IMG/VR virus record: IMGVR_UViG_3300009168_000068
Span: 1 to 41,836 of that record
DNA: 41,836 bases
Direction: 5' to 3' (one strand)
From: a virus
Positions 28,942 to 36,511 of this stretch are shown here, one piece after another; within the stretch, counting starts at the first letter, position 1, and each line of letters opens with the position of its first letter. Position numbers and translations under genes: made by a program. The notes below the pieces were generated by a model. The model worked only from the letters and a program-made list of their open reading frames with translations. It did not search any database and was not told the origin of the DNA.

Positions 28942-29178
28942 CTACTTCACGTCGTAATTCTTCTTCATCTTCGGCAGCGCCTCCGGATCACGAAAGCACT
29001 CCGGCACGCCCATCTCATGCTCGCCGTTCCAGTCCTCATCGGCCGGCAGGTCGCCCTGATACGCCATCGCCTTCCACGTCTCGCGATTCAGCGGCAGGCC
29101 ACGCTCCAGCATGGTCTGCAGCGTCGGGTCTTCCTCGGCATAGCGCGCGGCGATCTCGCGCGGCACATCGTCGCTCAT
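28942..29178 (-). CDS. Hypothetical 78-residue protein before terminase
   Basis: A small acidic, helical protein starting MSDDVPREIAARYAEEDPTL. It contains PLNRETWKAMAYQGDLPADE, a short unit seen in small phage proteins next to terminase genes. It has no visible DNA-binding motif. The ATG overlaps the stop of the 843-residue gene (ATGA). It could be a packaging accessory or small terminase candidate by position, though the protein at 35178 looks better for that. Confidence 0.65.
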   Translation of the reverse strand: MSDDVPREIAARYAEEDPTLQTMLERGLPLNRETWKAMAYQGDLPADEDWNGEHEMGVPECFRDPEALPKMKKNYDVK

Positions 29179-31706
29179 TTCGGTTTCTCCTGCTTGCGCC
29201 AGACCAGCTCTTCCTTGACGAACTTCTTGCCGATCTGCTCGCCCACTGCATCCTTCCCGCGGTTGGGCACAAACCCCAGCCGCTCATAAAGCCGGCGCTG
29301 GTCCTCCCGCGCCACCCTGCCTCGCGCCGCGTCACTGGTCAGCACCACCGGGTTGCCGCGCGCCGCCGCCTCGTCCTGAATCTGGCGGATCACCTCAGAA
29401 CCGAAGCCCTTGCGCTGCGCAGAGGGGAAAATCTCGATACTGGCGATGCGGGTTTGCGTCTCGCCGTGCTCAACCTTCACCTTGCCGATCGGGTTGCCGC
29501 CCGCCGTGATCGTGCCGTCGTCCGCGATCGTCACCTCAGCGTCCTTCTTAGCCGGCGAAACATACCACGTTGGCGGGTCGATGCCACCGGAATGCTCCAA
29601 TATTTGTGCTCGGGCCTGCTGCGCGGTAATCCGCCCCTCACGAAAATCCTGCCAAATGGCTGCGTTCTTGGCGACAAACGCCTCGTCCCGCTTCTGCTCG
29701 GGTGAAAAGAGGCCCCTGACGGCCTCCCAGGCGATCGACTGCACCTGGCGGGGCAACAGGCCCAGCTTCTCCGCCGCCCGCCGGTAGGCCTCATGGTGGA
29801 TCGCATAGCCCCCCTTGGAGCCGGTGACGATCGAGGAACTGCCACCGGTCCCCAGGCCGAAATCGACCACAGGATGGCTCCCGCCCATCGGGCGCAGATG
29901 CGTCGCGTTGATCGCGTGGGTGTCGATCGTCGTGTCGCCCCAATCGCTGTTGGGGCTGATGATGTTATTGAAGAACGAGCGCACCTTGTGATTGCCGCCG
30001 AGACTCTTACTGAGGGTCCGCAGGTCGTCGGTGTGCAACGCCTGCAGCGCCTTCCTGATCTCGCCGAAACTGCCCCAGCCAATCTTGCTCGGCGTGCCGT
30101 CAGCGTTGGTCGAGGCCTCAGCAAACCCGCCTTCCGGGGTGACGATCGGGTAGTCTTTTGAATTGTGCGCCTCGTCATAGGCCCTGGCGAACACCGCCTG
30201 CGCGTCCGGGTCGTTGATCTCCCGCAGAGGCCGACCACGACGCAGGCTCGACAGCGTCATCTCCAAGCTGTCAGCCGATTTCTGCTTGCCGAAGTAACTA
30301 ACCACCGCCTTAGGCGGCTTAGTGCCGTTCTGCACCGCCTCCTGCAACGCCGCGGCGGCCGTCTCCGGCGTAAAGCCTCCCTTGGCCAGCGCTTTGACGT
30401 TCTCCGCCTCGATCTGCGCCTGGTAGGACTGCGACCAGGCCTCCATCTCCGGCGACCAGCTATTTTCCTGGCGGTTCTTGATCACATCGACCAGGCGCTT
30501 GCCCAGATCAGCGTTCTGGTACCAATCTTTTTGCGGGCTTAGGTTCGCCATCAGTGCCGCGATCTGCCGCGGCGTGTAACCCGTCTCCGCAGCGATCTTC
30601 AGCGCGATCTCGTGCGCCCCGTCATACCACCTGGCCGCCCGTGCGACCGTCTCCGGCCCATATCGATCGCGCATGCCGTCATGCAGGAACAGCAGGTTAT
30701 CGACCATGTGCTGGATGGTTTTTTCCACGATGTTGTCGGGGTTGCGCATCCCCTTCACCGGCAGATCGGGGAAGTCCCCGTCGCGCAACAGCATCGCGTT
30801 CTTGTCCCACGCCTCCTTGGCGCGTTTCGACGCCTCCAGGCTGACATTTGACGTGGCGACCGTGTGCGGATCAGCCTCGCCAGGCTCGATGTTCTTCTCG
30901 GCGCGGGTTGAGACGCGGTCCTGCTCGCGGATGCCCTTCAGGATCGGCGTGTCCGCCATCTCCCCCGCAGCTTTGGCCTCCGCCGCCGCGGTCTTTGCCA
31001 CCACCTCAGTGAGCGGCACCGCGTCGGCGGGGCGCACCACGCCCATGGTGCGGTCGATCGCCTCGTCCAGCGCCGTACGCTGCACTGCCCTGGCCTCGGT
31101 GGCCGCCAGGCGGGCATCCCGCTTGCTGCCGCCAAACGCGTTCAGCACGTCAGCGACTGGCCGCTCCAGCGGGTTGACCAGGGAAGCCAGGGCCAGGGTG
31201 CCCTCCGGCGTCACGCCGCCCGTGCGCGGCCCTTGCGACACGTCCCAGGCACCCTGCGCCAGGCTGCGCAGGCCGGCTGGCAGGGCAATCCGCAGCTCGC
31301 CGGTCGCATTATCACGCGCCATCGGCAGCACATCGCCGTATGTCGTGTTGGCTGCGGGCGCCAGGGCGTTCTGCACGGCAGCATCGATCGCCGCATCGCG
31401 GGCCGTGGCCGGGGTCTGGTTGGCCCGGTGCAGCGTCATCCAGCCAAGGTTCGTGCTCGGCGCGTCATAGCCGGCATAGTTCACCAGCCGCTCGGTGCCG
31501 ACCACGTTGCTGGTAGGCCACATCGGATTGACCGGCGTCGGCGGCGCACTCCACGCAACCGGTGGCGCATAGCGTGGCGCGCCGCTGGTGACGCCTGGCA
31601 GCGCCTCGACACCAGGGTCGAGCATATTGCCCCGAGCGCGCAGTGCGGCCAGCCAGGCCTCCAGCGCGTCGGGTGACGCCGTCAGCAGTGCATTGTCCGA
31701 GGCCAT
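29175..31706 (-). CDS. Large polyvalent-type protein with C-terminal GNAT domain
   Basis: An 843-residue multidomain protein. Residues 1-300 are Ala/Pro-rich and low in structure. The middle (about 320-660) contains TGYTPRQIAALMANLSPQKD, then DLRTLSKSLGGNHKVRSFFN and NIISPNSDWGDTTIDTHAIN, the S-P-x-x-x-W / F-x-N-I...T-I-D-x-H-A pattern of a helical domain found in phage polyvalent proteins. Residues about 735-825 are a GNAT fold (IEIFPSAQRKGFGSEVIRQI; RRLYERLGFVPNRG). Such proteins may be packaged and injected to act on the host, which is an inference. It precedes the terminase genes. Confidence 0.7.
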   Translation of the reverse strand: MASDNALLTASPDALEAWLAALRARGNMLDPGVEALPGVTSGAPRYAPPVAWSAPPTPVNPMWPTSNVVGTERLVNYAGYDAPSTNLGWMTLHRANQTPATARDAAIDAAVQNALAPAANTTYGDVLPMARDNATGELRIALPAGLRSLAQGAWDVSQGPRTGGVTPEGTLALASLVNPLERPVADVLNAFGGSKRDARLAATEARAVQRTALDEAIDRTMGVVRPADAVPLTEVVAKTAAAEAKAAGEMADTPILKGIREQDRVSTRAEKNIEPGEADPHTVATSNVSLEASKRAKEAWDKNAMLLRDGDFPDLPVKGMRNPDNIVEKTIQHMVDNLLFLHDGMRDRYGPETVARAARWYDGAHEIALKIAAETGYTPRQIAALMANLSPQKDWYQNADLGKRLVDVIKNRQENSWSPEMEAWSQSYQAQIEAENVKALAKGGFTPETAAAALQEAVQNGTKPPKAVVSYFGKQKSADSLEMTLSSLRRGRPLREINDPDAQAVFARAYDEAHNSKDYPIVTPEGGFAEASTNADGTPSKIGWGSFGEIRKALQALHTDDLRTLSKSLGGNHKVRSFFNNIISPNSDWGDTTIDTHAINATHLRPMGGSHPVVDFGLGTGGSSSIVTGSKGGYAIHHEAYRRAAEKLGLLPRQVQSIAWEAVRGLFSPEQKRDEAFVAKNAAIWQDFREGRITAQQARAQILEHSGGIDPPTWYVSPAKKDAEVTIADDGTITAGGNPIGKVKVEHGETQTRIASIEIFPSAQRKGFGSEVIRQIQDEAAARGNPVVLTSDAARGRVAREDQRRLYERLGFVPNRGKDAVGEQIGKKFVKEELVWRKQEKPK

Positions 31707-31920: not shown

Positions 31921-33915
31921 TCAGGTGATGCACCAGCCCCAGGCCGGATGCCATGCGCTCCGGTTGTGCCGGGTGAACTCGCTGTCGATCCACGCATAGG
32001 CTGAAGCAGCCTCGCTCACCCCGTTACGCGCCGCCACCGCCAGCGCCGCACGCACATACTGTGCGTATCCCACCGAGCCGCTGGTTTCGTTGTAAAGCTC
32101 GTTCATCCCACTTGGATCGGACGGCATGTGCGGCACGTCTTCCGGGTGCATCGCCACAGCTCGCATCGCCGCCTCGAGCCACGACAGATAGGTTGGCCCG
32201 ACCAGCACCTGGCCCGCTGCATGCGCCACCGGAGCGGTGCGCTCGACCTCCCACAGCGCCGTATCGCTCTTGTCGATGACCAGCATAGTTTCGCTCTGGC
32301 ATTTAACCTGGAAAGGTTCCACGGGCCACGGCCCGCCACCATACTTATCGACCGGGACAAACGTGTCTGCCTCGGTGATAGCCGCTGTCAGGCTGCATGT
32401 ATATACGAGGCCTGTGTTGTAGGGACATGGCGCGGAGCGCGGCCATGCCTCGCCGTTGGTCCGGTTGATCTCCGAATCGATCTTCCAGGCCAGCACCTCA
32501 AACCACTCATCGAAGCCAAGTTGCGCGCACATTCCATAAACCAGGCTTTCCATCGCACACTGCCAAAACACGGCATAAGTGCCGGAGGGGTGCGCCGGAG
32601 TGCCCTGCGATCCACCGAATTGCCGGGCGCGGAACACCGACAGGATCGGGTTCGGGTCCGCCATGTCCTTCAGCGCCTCAGCGCGCACCCCCTCCATGTG
32701 CGCATGGAACACTGACTTAGGCAGCAACCAGCGCGGCGGATCGTCCGGCGATGCTACGGCGGCGTAGAGCTTGTTGCGGAGCGGCCAGGCGCCGTATCTA
32801 CCGCCATATGTATATCTGCCCTTCGCCGGCTCGCCCAGAATCTCAATGTTGGATTGGAACTGGAGCGCCTCCAGATAGTACGGATCACCCGTCAGCAGCC
32901 ACGGCAGGTAGCTGCACGCCGGACTGTGTCCGCTGTCATAAGCAACGATGCCCTTGGTCAGCGGCACAATCGGATCACCGCCGTTGGTGTAGCTGGTTAA
33001 CGTTGGCCAATCGTTGGCCAGATCGAGCGGCGCGCCCGTCTCCGGATCACGCAGATGCATGCTGATGGTGCCCGACGCCTCGCCCTGGGCAATGACGGTT
33101 TCGGCATTATTCCCTTTGCACAAATATTGCGCCTGCCAACCAGTCATGATGCCGATGTCGGCGCGATCGCCGGTCCACCCCATGCCGGTGACCATGCCGC
33201 TGAAACCCATGACGCTGTAGGTCTGCGGCGCCAGGTCGGCGATGAACTGGCCTAGCGTCGTGCCGTCATAGTGCGGCACCAACCCCGACTGGATCAGTGT
33301 CTGACGGTCAACCCGCACCGGTCGTGGCGCAGACTGCCAGCGCCACCTGGCATACCAGGGATGCGATGGCACGGCGATCGTGGCAACCAGTTCATCACCG
33401 TCCCAAATCTCGGCCTCGTATTCGCCCAGATTGGCTGGCGTCAGCGAGGCCACCAGGGGCACGCCAAGCTCGACGATCACCTCTTGTCGGGAACCATCAG
33501 CGTCAGGCCTGAACCACACCGTCAGCCCAGGCAGCGCGTCGTCCTGGCGGGGCGCACGGTAGCAGTGTTGGGTGAACATGCCGCCCGGGTCGACGTAGTC
33601 CCCCAGGTTCTCGGCCCCCGCCTCCTCATAGACAGTCTCGCCGGATGCGGCGCGGATGACGACGGCCAGCCCCTCGCCTGGCTCCGGCTTGGGCGGTTCA
33701 GGCGTCGGCAGCGCGTTATCGATGATGCCGCCTGGCAGCCCGATCTCGATCGGCGGCGTGGTGCCGGCAGCCTGCTCCAGCACCGCCACCCTGGCGTTCA
33801 GATCGGCGATCGCCTGCTCGTGCTCGGCGAGCATGTCGTCAGTGGCATCAGCCCGCATCTCGAGGGATGCAACCCGCTGCTCGAGCTGCGCATCGCTCAC
33901 TGGAGGCTTACCCAC
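31921..33915 (-). CDS. Putative tailspike with alpha/alpha-toroid glycan-active domain
   Basis: A 664-residue protein. It opens with a trimeric-coiled-coil-like region (LEQRVASLEMRADATDDMLA; AIADLNARVAVLEQA), then a proline-rich hinge (about 60-80) and a beta-sandwich (85-200). Residues about 210-660 contain DSGHSPACSYLPWLLTGDPY, the H-x-P-x-x-x-Y-L-x-x-L-L-T-G-D pattern known from helical-toroid lyase or hydrolase-like proteins. A receptor-binding or capsule/EPS-degrading spike fits. The start is GTG at 33915, overlapping the TAG of the PEP-CTERM gene. Catalytic residues are not assigned. Confidence 0.6.
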   Translation of the reverse strand: MGKPPVSDAQLEQRVASLEMRADATDDMLAEHEQAIADLNARVAVLEQAAGTTPPIEIGLPGGIIDNALPTPEPPKPEPGEGLAVVIRAASGETVYEEAGAENLGDYVDPGGMFTQHCYRAPRQDDALPGLTVWFRPDADGSRQEVIVELGVPLVASLTPANLGEYEAEIWDGDELVATIAVPSHPWYARWRWQSAPRPVRVDRQTLIQSGLVPHYDGTTLGQFIADLAPQTYSVMGFSGMVTGMGWTGDRADIGIMTGWQAQYLCKGNNAETVIAQGEASGTISMHLRDPETGAPLDLANDWPTLTSYTNGGDPIVPLTKGIVAYDSGHSPACSYLPWLLTGDPYYLEALQFQSNIEILGEPAKGRYTYGGRYGAWPLRNKLYAAVASPDDPPRWLLPKSVFHAHMEGVRAEALKDMADPNPILSVFRARQFGGSQGTPAHPSGTYAVFWQCAMESLVYGMCAQLGFDEWFEVLAWKIDSEINRTNGEAWPRSAPCPYNTGLVYTCSLTAAITEADTFVPVDKYGGGPWPVEPFQVKCQSETMLVIDKSDTALWEVERTAPVAHAAGQVLVGPTYLSWLEAAMRAVAMHPEDVPHMPSDPSGMNELYNETSGSVGYAQYVRAALAVAARNGVSEAASAYAWIDSEFTRHNRSAWHPAWGWCIT

Positions 33916-34631
33916 TACACGCTACGGCGACGCACAGCAGCGATGCCGAGCAGACCGAGGCCGAGGAGGCCCAGGGTGGCCGGCTCTGGCACCGCGGCTG
34001 CGGTCGTCACCATGCTTTGGTTAAAGCCCGTAATGCTGCCGCCTGTGATCAGCGCCAGCGACGCCCCCTCAGTCATGCTGAACGAGTCGCCATCAACGAA
34101 CGCCGCAACGTTGCTGCCCGCGAAAGAATCGGGATTGGTGGTCGCGGCCCCGCTGACGCTCTCCAGCAGGATGCCAGGCGTGTTGGTCGGGTTGGCGCCC
34201 TGCACGTTGGCCGCGTCTGCCCAGAACTTCAATGTGCTGTCCGGCGCGCCGACGTTGTCGTTGAAGGTGAGGCTGCCCGAGTTGGTCACGAGACTGACCG
34301 GCCCGACGTAGTCGGTCTGGCTGGCCAGCAGGGTGACAACGATCGGCGCCCCCGACTGGTTCTCGATGTTGCTCGAGGACATTTGCAGCGAGTTGCTGGC
34401 GCCGCTGGTGCTCTGCACGAGGGTGATCTGCACAAAGGCGCCGCCCACCAGCGTATTGACGGTCAGCAAGTTATTCGCCCCGCCGGACAAATCACAACCC
34501 AACTGCCCATCGGCACACGTAAAGGTCGAGCCGTTCGCCCCGATGCTCAATTGCAGGGTGGCGTGAGCCGGCGGCACGAAGGCGAAGCTGGCGGTAGCGA
34601 TGGCGGTAGCGGCGAGCAGCAACGTGCGCAT
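33915..34631 (-). CDS. PEP-CTERM sorting-domain protein
   Basis: A 238-residue secreted protein. MRTLLLAATAIATASFAF with PPAHA after it is a Sec signal peptide, likely cut after AHA. The body is Ser/Thr/Asn-rich beta structure with two cysteines (FTCADGQLGCDLSG) that could pair. The ending VPEPATLGLLGLGLLG followed by IAAVRRR (214-236) is a textbook PEP-CTERM signal: the PEP motif, a hydrophobic helix, then arginines, recognised by exosortase and linked in bacteria to exopolysaccharide export. It has CAGGAGG seven bases before the ATG. This is a bacterial-type surface protein inside the phage late region, so it was probably acquired from a host. Confidence 0.9.
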   Translation of the reverse strand: MRTLLLAATAIATASFAFVPPAHATLQLSIGANGSTFTCADGQLGCDLSGGANNLLTVNTLVGGAFVQITLVQSTSGASNSLQMSSSNIENQSGAPIVVTLLASQTDYVGPVSLVTNSGSLTFNDNVGAPDSTLKFWADAANVQGANPTNTPGILLESVSGAATTNPDSFAGSNVAAFVDGDSFSMTEGASLALITGGSITGFNQSMVTTAAAVPEPATLGLLGLGLLGIAAVRRRSV

Positions 34632-34704
34632 GGCGTGGCCTCCTGGGTTAGGGTTATGATGATCATGCCGCTTTCACAGCGTCAGCGGCAACTGTAACCA
34701 TCGA

Positions 34705-35935: not shown

Positions 35936-36511
35936 TCAGAGCCGGTGCAGCGCGTCGAGCGGGACAGTCACCTGGCGCAGCCCGCCCAACAGCAAAATGG
36001 CGACGCTGGCTGTTGAGCGGCGCAGCTTGACGATGACGCCCTGGTGTCCCTCGAGCGCAGTGCCCGCGCCGAGGCTCACAGCGTCACCTGGCGCATACAG
36101 CGCCCGTGGTGCCTCGAGGGTGCGACGACCATCCTCGGTCGCCACCAGCGCCTCCACGGCGCCATCAGGACAGGCGATCGGCAGGTTCCCCACCCGCACC
36201 AGCGAGGCGACACCGAGCGTGTGCAGCACCGGCCGCCACGGATCACGCGTCGCGTCGAACCGTACGAAAAGATACCTAGGGAACAGCGGCACCTGCACGG
36301 CGTGCCACATCGAGCGCACCACCCGGTCCCGCTGCCGGACGGCGAGGAGGGGCAAATACGCCTGATAGCCTTGCCGATCGAGGTGTTGTGCGGCCCGCCG
36401 CTCCGCCTGCGGGTGGCTCATCACGACGTACCACGACGCCCTGCCACCACCACGGCTACCGCACGGCGTGGTAGCCGACCCATTGGCTGCCACACCGCAT
36501 GTTGTGTCCAC
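35936..36511 (-). CDS. NusG/RfaH-like transcription elongation factor
   Basis: A 191-residue protein. From about residue 26 it shows the NGN domain: SWYVVMSHPQAERRAAQHLD, GYQAYLPLLAVRQRDRVV, then VPLFPRYLFVRFD, followed by LGVASLVRVGNLP. The C-terminal part, YAPGDAVSLGAGTALEGHQG and VIVKLR, is a KOW-type barrel. NusG homologues ride on RNA polymerase, and specialised ones such as RfaH prevent termination in particular operons. The start is GTG at 36511 or GTG at 36493, both without a strong ribosome site; an 8-bp inverted repeat lies in the extension (36453-36477). It stands just after a hairpin cluster at the head of the late genes. Confidence 0.85.
   Translation of the reverse strand: MDTTCGVAANGSATTPCGSRGGGRASWYVVMSHPQAERRAAQHLDRQGYQAYLPLLAVRQRDRVVRSMWHAVQVPLFPRYLFVRFDATRDPWRPVLHTLGVASLVRVGNLPIACPDGAVEALVATEDGRRTLEAPRALYAPGDAVSLGAGTALEGHQGVIVKLRRSTASVAILLLGGLRQVTVPLDALHRL

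Follow-up and report, generated by a model that had tools for sequence, protein, structure and literature searches.

The overlapping gene pair

The window, by which we mean the whole stretch of DNA analysed, is a 41,836-base linear virus record (IMG/VR IMGVR_UViG_3300009168_000068) whose products include a P22-type portal and coat protein as well as a scaffold protein. Just upstream of its terminase and portal genes lie two genes, one for a 238-residue protein bearing a PEP-CTERM sorting signal and one for a 664-residue spike-like protein (hereafter the spike), joined such that the last G of the first gene's TAG is also the first base of the second gene's GTG (Table 1). An initial annotation, made from the letters alone, had described this TAGTG overlap, regarded the two genes as translationally coupled, and called the second product a putative tailspike with an alpha/alpha-toroid-like body that might degrade the exopolysaccharide (EPS) of the host. 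Both open reading frames (ORFs) and the one-base overlap are as it had them; 'tailspike' and 'alpha/alpha toroid' are interpretations, not observations.

Table 1. Features of the gene pair in window coordinates (pLDDT, predicted local distance difference test score; aa, amino acids)
Feature	Position	Strand	Basis
AGGAGG Shine-Dalgarno site of the PEP-CTERM gene	34639..34644	-	Strongest duplex of the 32 starts scored (-10.3 kcal/mol)
PEP-CTERM gene, 238 aa: signal peptide, beta-sandwich body, PEP-CTERM tail	33915..34631	-	ORF, family matches, model mean pLDDT 83.4
Signal peptide, about residues 1-24, AxA before the mature body	34560..34631	-	By inspection; all 22 aligned rows keep A22 and A24
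PEP-CTERM sorting motif: VPEP, hydrophobic stretch, RRR	33924..33992	-	TIGR02595 30.4 bits, over cut-off
TAGTG stop-start overlap, GTG lacking a Shine-Dalgarno site	33913..33917	-	Weakest duplex of the 32 starts scored (+0.6 kcal/mol)
Gene of the spike-like protein (664 aa), probably EPS-active	31921..33915	-	ORF and relatives
Helix at the N-terminus, probably a coiled coil, in the place of the signal sequence of bacterial relatives	33766..33891	-	Model residues 8-49, block pLDDT 50-71
Small beta-rich domain before the conserved body	33334..33666	-	Strands at model residues 83-193, block pLDDT 34-83
Core motif DxxHxPxxxYxPxLxTGD	32884..32937	-	H, P, Y, P, T, G invariant, both D's nearly so (26 rows)

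Taken by itself the overlap is ordinary, as at least eight gene junctions of the window overlap by 1-4 bases. Coupling becomes credible because, among the 32 window starts that we scored (mechanical ORF starts), the strongest Shine-Dalgarno site belongs to the PEP-CTERM gene and the weakest to the spike; such a contrast is expected where ribosomes coming off the PEP-CTERM gene go on to translate the spike. The overlap recurs in four of the 41 virus records that bear the spike (24 including the window, and 17 distant ones), namely the window itself (G000), L014 (G013, letters GTGA), L015 (G014, TGATG) and L043 (G017, TAGTG). The duplex contrast runs in the same direction in L014 (-6.6 kcal/mol for the PEP-CTERM gene, +0.6 for the spike) and L015 (-9.4 and +0.6), and we counted it in three of the four overlapping pairs, leaving out L043, whose spike start scores -3.1 kcal/mol. 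Overlap, contrast and recurrence together support the coupled arrangement that had been claimed, and the two genes are probably coupled in translation in vivo.

Coupling is real but is the arrangement of a minority of spike-bearing records. The upstream DNA of the spike was read in 19 further records, none of which had an adjoining PEP-CTERM gene, and nine of the 17 distant records carry such a gene at least 10 kb from the spike, judged by gene positions. Several records are partial: L047-L049, among the 24, match only the first 72-113 residues of the spike, where the contig ends, and L044 starts inside it. The synteny looked for among relatives was thus found in three other contigs, and not as the rule. 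Three full-length coupled spikes shared one branch in 0% of 200 bootstrap trees, in a poorly resolved spike tree from which the fragmentary L015 spike was left out; ancestral linkage of the pair and repeated gain may both be compatible with it.

The 238-residue product passes both curated cut-offs for the sorting motif, Pfam PEP-CTERM PF07589 (33.2 bits, cut-off 20.7) and TIGR02595 (26.1 bits, cut-off 16), which upholds its assignment; its match to floc_PepA is sub-threshold (47.3 bits, cut-off 80). The family to which it belongs comprises 24 viral loci, and the signal AxA, the PE of the PEP motif and two cysteines are conserved throughout a 22-row alignment. In the predicted structure a signal helix and a C-terminal helix flank a beta sandwich, whose top PDB matches included glycan-binding proteins, among them surface glycan-binding protein B (SGBP-B; Z 9.2, root-mean-square deviation 3.4, 133 aligned residues), CBM61 (Z 8.1, deviation 2.9, 119 aligned), and Bdellovibrio Bd1399, the phage K2-2 tailspike and CBM16 (Z 7-9). 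Against a viral fold library, query-normalised TM-scores were 0.18-0.38 among the matches listed (50 rows).

No match to the window's PEP-CTERM body was found among 50,697 phage records. Both searches for it in bacteria were of limited sensitivity: a two-pattern scan of genome contigs gave 39 pattern matches with none confirmed, and a profile search of 385 genomes, all of the same class as G081, from which a locus titled Rhodospirillaceae comes, gave none at E 1e-10, an empty answer that shows nothing, there being no positive control. The PEP-CTERM bodies of spike-bearing phages fell into at least four BLAST clusters, built from stop-to-stop frames, so defined that the joining of L055 and L056 to the window's family may be false (the spurious L084_1 was dropped). 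A profile of the window's family partly matches the L014 (E 5e-15) and L043 (E 3e-8) proteins, tail included, and some bodies placed in separate clusters may be remote kin.

Two further arrangements were seen among these phages. Those with PEPxxWA-like tails (L020, L026, L027, L036 and L037), which we take to be sphingomonad-like, have another PEP-CTERM-like gene immediately downstream; in L020 and L037 this gene exceeds the TIGR02595 cut-off, and in L026, L027 and L036 it is recognised by eye only. In L022, L025 and L032 the PEP-CTERM gene is found between a terminase-like gene and an apparent portal gene.

The spike-like protein and its bacterial relatives

The spike matched nothing in Pfam or NCBIfam and had no PDB match by sequence; no PHROG tail family matched it, and its sole PHROGs match (phrog_5225, E 0.015) is weak and lies over the N-terminal coil. 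The string H-S-P-A-C-S-Y-L-P-W-L-L-T-G-D that the initial annotation had picked out is present, and the conserved H-x-P...TGD motif presumably resembles the helix-hairpin motifs of toroid enzymes; the 26 rows in which its conservation was scored combine phage and bacterial sequences. The toroid body itself remains putative. Structure prediction failed, the AlphaFold model built with 12 close sequences reaching a pLDDT of 41.1; no credible solved relative emerged by sequence from five queries (P0001, gp39, A3, A1 and A6, the last being the 26-row alignment with bacterial relatives), whose listed matches were at E of at least 0.7 and short or coiled-coil; and the catalytic domain of PcRGLX was unmatched. 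As for the coiled-coil N-terminus, a helix is indeed modelled there, at middling confidence that makes the coil itself only probable, and some phage copies of the spike have a coil at this end, some a proline-rich stretch and some neither. The glycan-active role that we propose for the spike would accordingly be read from its gene context and not from its fold.

The sole sequence hint of a lyase comes from the PcRGLX/PL26 exo-rhamnogalacturonan lyases, whose N-terminal RIFT barrel domain (PcRGLX_1st, cut-off 22.1 bits) is detected in some relatives of the spike body, namely gp39 of EBPR siphovirus 1 (23.3 bits), L167 (28.0), L183 (25.0) and L169 (25.2). That domain was absent from the window spike in the Pfam scan, and the catalytic alpha/alpha domain PcRGLX_2nd had no match in eight phage records or in Pfam scans of the window spike and its relatives. 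Among 17 bacterial genomes PcRGLX_2nd exceeded its cut-off in one (G091, Massilia timonae), in two proteins of which neither is a spike relative, and left three sub-cut-off fragments (E 0.03-0.57). A profile-profile comparison (hhalign) of the spike with two true PcRGLX proteins of M. timonae was not significant (probability 1.3). With the catalytic domain unmatched and that comparison negative, we rejected plain membership of PL26, although a very remote relation may exist. The member of the spike family in EBPR siphovirus 1, gp39, shares 30.6% identity with the window spike over about 148 residues and differs from it in having the RIFT domain. Annotated as hypothetical (L040 4675-9105), gp39 adjoins gp40, which is annotated 'glycoyl hydrolase'.

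A scan of bacterial genome contigs found relatives of the spike body in 166 stretches. The matches listed fall into 78 distinct loci, mostly from Massilia and other Oxalobacteraceae and also from Polyangium and alphaproteobacterial metagenome-assembled genomes (MAGs); the closest of those listed include Rhodospirillaceae and other alphaproteobacterial MAGs. Relatives of the portal in named phages are spread across many hosts. From the 78 loci we took 14, roughly one for each genus, and scanned 121 proteins from their neighbourhoods; at E 1e-10 these matched TIGR02915 (PEP-CTERM response regulator) and TIGR03097 (exosortase A O-glycosylation ligase) four times each, and TIGR03098 and TIGR03099 (exosortase A ligase and decarboxylase) three times each. 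Verification gene by gene covered four of the 14 loci, and in all four, genes of the exosortase-A system exceed curated cut-offs beside the spike homologue: the O-glycosylation ligase TIGR03097 in L159 (E 2e-109) and L156 (E 3.2e-60), hydrolase 2 in L167 (E 1.6e-88) and hydrolase 1 in L183 (E 3.2e-108). Below cut-off, being cut short, are a frame at the edge of L159 that resembles exosortase A (E 3.1e-36) and the end of a response regulator in L183. No exosortase-A system genes were recognised by eye beside the homologue in L155, L162 and L191.

At the level of sequence, then, the spike body is kin to proteins of EPS loci. This part of the link to EPS drawn by the initial annotation stands, with homologues beside exosortase-A EPS genes in four of the 14 sampled loci; that the spike degrades EPS is what we infer. 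By a crude hydrophobicity test a strongly hydrophobic, signal-like segment was present in 32 of the 38 bacterial copies that we picked by hand from the 78 loci and in none of 20 phage copies, a contrast biased by the longer stretches searched in the bacterial copies. Many of the bacterial segments look like lipoprotein, Sec or Tat signals, and the simplest reading would be that the phage protein derives from a secreted protein of an EPS locus. In L155, L159 and L183 the bacterial relatives occur as tandem or nearby paralogues, and a protein of a Skermanella rosea plasmid (L133 7404-10010) combines a spike-body relative with RTX calcium-binding repeats.

Readings of the pair

We put at about even chances the reading that the pair forms a phage module aimed at the EPS of hosts with an exosortase-A/PEP-CTERM system, its sorting, its action on EPS and its masking use included. 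One mRNA, presumably late, would direct rapid synthesis of the PEP-CTERM protein and, through termination-reinitiation at TAGTG, synthesis of the spike. With its N-terminal coil and its EPS-locus-type body, the spike would be carried on virions or freed at lysis and would bind EPS or, as a putative enzyme, cleave it. The PEP-CTERM protein would enter the Sec pathway of the infected cell, where the host exosortase would cut and sort it, and so become part of the same EPS that the spike recognises. We hypothesise, by analogy with the action of the phage T5 lipoprotein Llp on its protein receptor, that its most likely use would be to change or mask the EPS and so keep progeny spikes from being caught on infected cells and debris or from adsorbing to them again. 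A sharper version, in which the host exosortase installs a phage-made glycan-binding protein in the EPS and shields it from the phage's own depolymerase spike, the coupling fixing the ratio of the two, seems to us rather unlikely.

The spike and PEP-CTERM genes also keep company outside the overlapping pairs. TIGR02595 exceeds its cut-off in 16 of the 41 spike-bearing records, comprising all 13 of at least 31 kb (G000, G008, G009, G011, G017, G026, G029, G035, G037, G040, G043, G044 and G048) vs. three of the 28 shorter ones, a length cut that we chose after seeing the data; in 11 of the 13 the PEP-CTERM gene is far from the spike. Three records of at least 39 kb that were found via the portal or coat protein and lack the spike (G032, G033 and G057) matched neither TIGR02595 nor NF035944. 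Among 12 records found via the portal, five have PEP-CTERM, four have the spike and three have both.

A number of observations weigh against reading the pair as an EPS-directed module. The co-occurrence, though a strong pattern, falls short of a clean test because of the post-hoc length cut, because the phages are related, and because TIGR02595 also exceeds its cut-off in two of 14 control genomes. The portal relatives include mismatches, PEP-CTERM without spike in G034 and G036 (5.9 and 6.5 kb) and spike without PEP-CTERM in G027 (25 kb). In 12 of the 16 records with both genes they do not adjoin, the nearest distance being at least 8 kb, and a spike search of the 22 records with the window's PEP-CTERM body family (L018-L039) gave no match anywhere, 11 of the 22 being at least 31 kb long and half being fragments; G011, also of that body family, has the spike. 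Types of PEP-CTERM body do not track types of spike, the L015/L043 body clustering with those of distant-spike phages, and this mismatch favours a more general effect on the matrix over a specific mask; we keep both. The structural matches of the PEP-CTERM body at Z of about 9 may reflect only a common sandwich arrangement, as IBDV VP2 and 4-1BBL, non-glycan proteins for which we know of no glycan binding, match the model at Z 6.6-7.5. The search bias behind the signal-segment contrast counts here too, and an exosortase in the phage's host is presumed.

Several of these points would suit a cargo gene (moron), which is the best-surviving alternative though in our view a somewhat unlikely one: phages with exosortase hosts would carry the PEP-CTERM gene for a general change of the matrix, such as flocculation or loosening, and it would stand beside the spike through a shared insertion spot upstream of the terminase. 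The variation of PEP-CTERM bodies while the spike stays, the placement of PEP-CTERM genes elsewhere in most spike-bearing phages that have one, the spike-free result for those 22 records and the sub-threshold floc_PepA match all favour it. PEP-CTERM proteins can change the matrix, since in Aquincola overexpressed PepA shifts EPS from the soluble to the cell-bound form (accessible text of PMC9850573). Against it, the overlap occurs in four divergent contigs, three of them lacking a Shine-Dalgarno site for the spike, which suggests selection for joint expression.

We consider it improbable that the PEP-CTERM protein serves as a decoy substrate, keeping the host exosortase busy and so leaving host matrix proteins immature and the biofilm loosened for release while the spike cuts the polysaccharide. 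The strong Shine-Dalgarno site, the complete sorting signal and the presence of two PEP-CTERM genes over cut-off in each of G026, G029, G035 and G048 would fit; yet a decoy needs no conserved body, and the window's family keeps residues, two cysteines among them, across the 22 rows. There is similarly little chance that the spike is an EPS enzyme freed at lysis and no virion protein, with the PEP-CTERM protein unrelated in action: the spike gene precedes that of the terminase and is remote from the genes for ejection and tail-fibre proteins (9.5-12.7 kb of the window) and from a weak tail-fibre match (19.0-19.7 kb), and the lack of signal sequences in the phage copies and of a PHROG tail match agrees with this, but an N-terminal coil, here a model helix of middling confidence, is typical of trimeric spikes.

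Known systems and neighbouring genes

Compared with the PEP-CTERM/exosortase system (EpsH/XrtA), the window protein has the same signal peptide, PEP motif, hydrophobic stretch and basic end, and differs in being phage-encoded, by a gene that overlaps its neighbour. It shares the general layout of the PepA flocculation proteins, but falling below the floc_PepA cut-off it is no member by that model. In gene order only, the pair recalls Llp/oad of phage T5, where the gene of an exported surface protein adjoins a receptor-binding gene (oad) near terminase and portal; the T5 lytic conversion lipoprotein inactivates the phage receptor (note of the T5 record and accessible text of PMC10783031). The T5 genes are divergent with promoters between them and the target is a protein, FhuA, whereas the window genes share one strand and overlap, the PEP-CTERM protein has no lipoprotein signal by inspection, and the target is probably a glycan.

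We found no report of a phage-encoded PEP-CTERM protein among the titles and abstract openings listed from the literature searched, which mostly excludes subscription journals. The accessible text of the 2006 paper defining the PEP-CTERM system has no word beginning with 'phage' or 'viral', and the PEP-CTERM genes in the accessible text of PMC12642866 are those of Microcystis. The pairing of a phage protein that modifies the cell surface with one presumed to recognise the host is a known theme, and what would be new is the exosortase sorting route, undescribed for phages in that literature. The shielding version, if true, would be the polysaccharide counterpart of T5 Llp and, within the same literature, the first described viral use of exosortase sorting.

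Exosortase substrates are numerous, and for most of them no function is known. Their presence in phages suggests that EPS sorting matters enough for viruses to use it, and offers small systems in which it can be examined. Because the spike-body family also occurs in bacterial exosortase-A EPS loci, with no activity assigned by Pfam or NCBIfam, the phage copy, which lacks a signal sequence, may serve as a soluble tool with which to identify that polysaccharide and to disrupt the flocs or biofilms dependent on it.

Two neighbours of the pair deserve mention. Upstream, a gene at 35936-36511 (-) encodes a NusG domain (Pfam E 2.9e-18) and has a 51% relative in L014; its product is probably a phage-borne NusG/RfaH-like factor. 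The next large gene after the spike, at 29175-31706 (-), encodes 843 residues with DUF7178 and a GNAT acetyltransferase domain.

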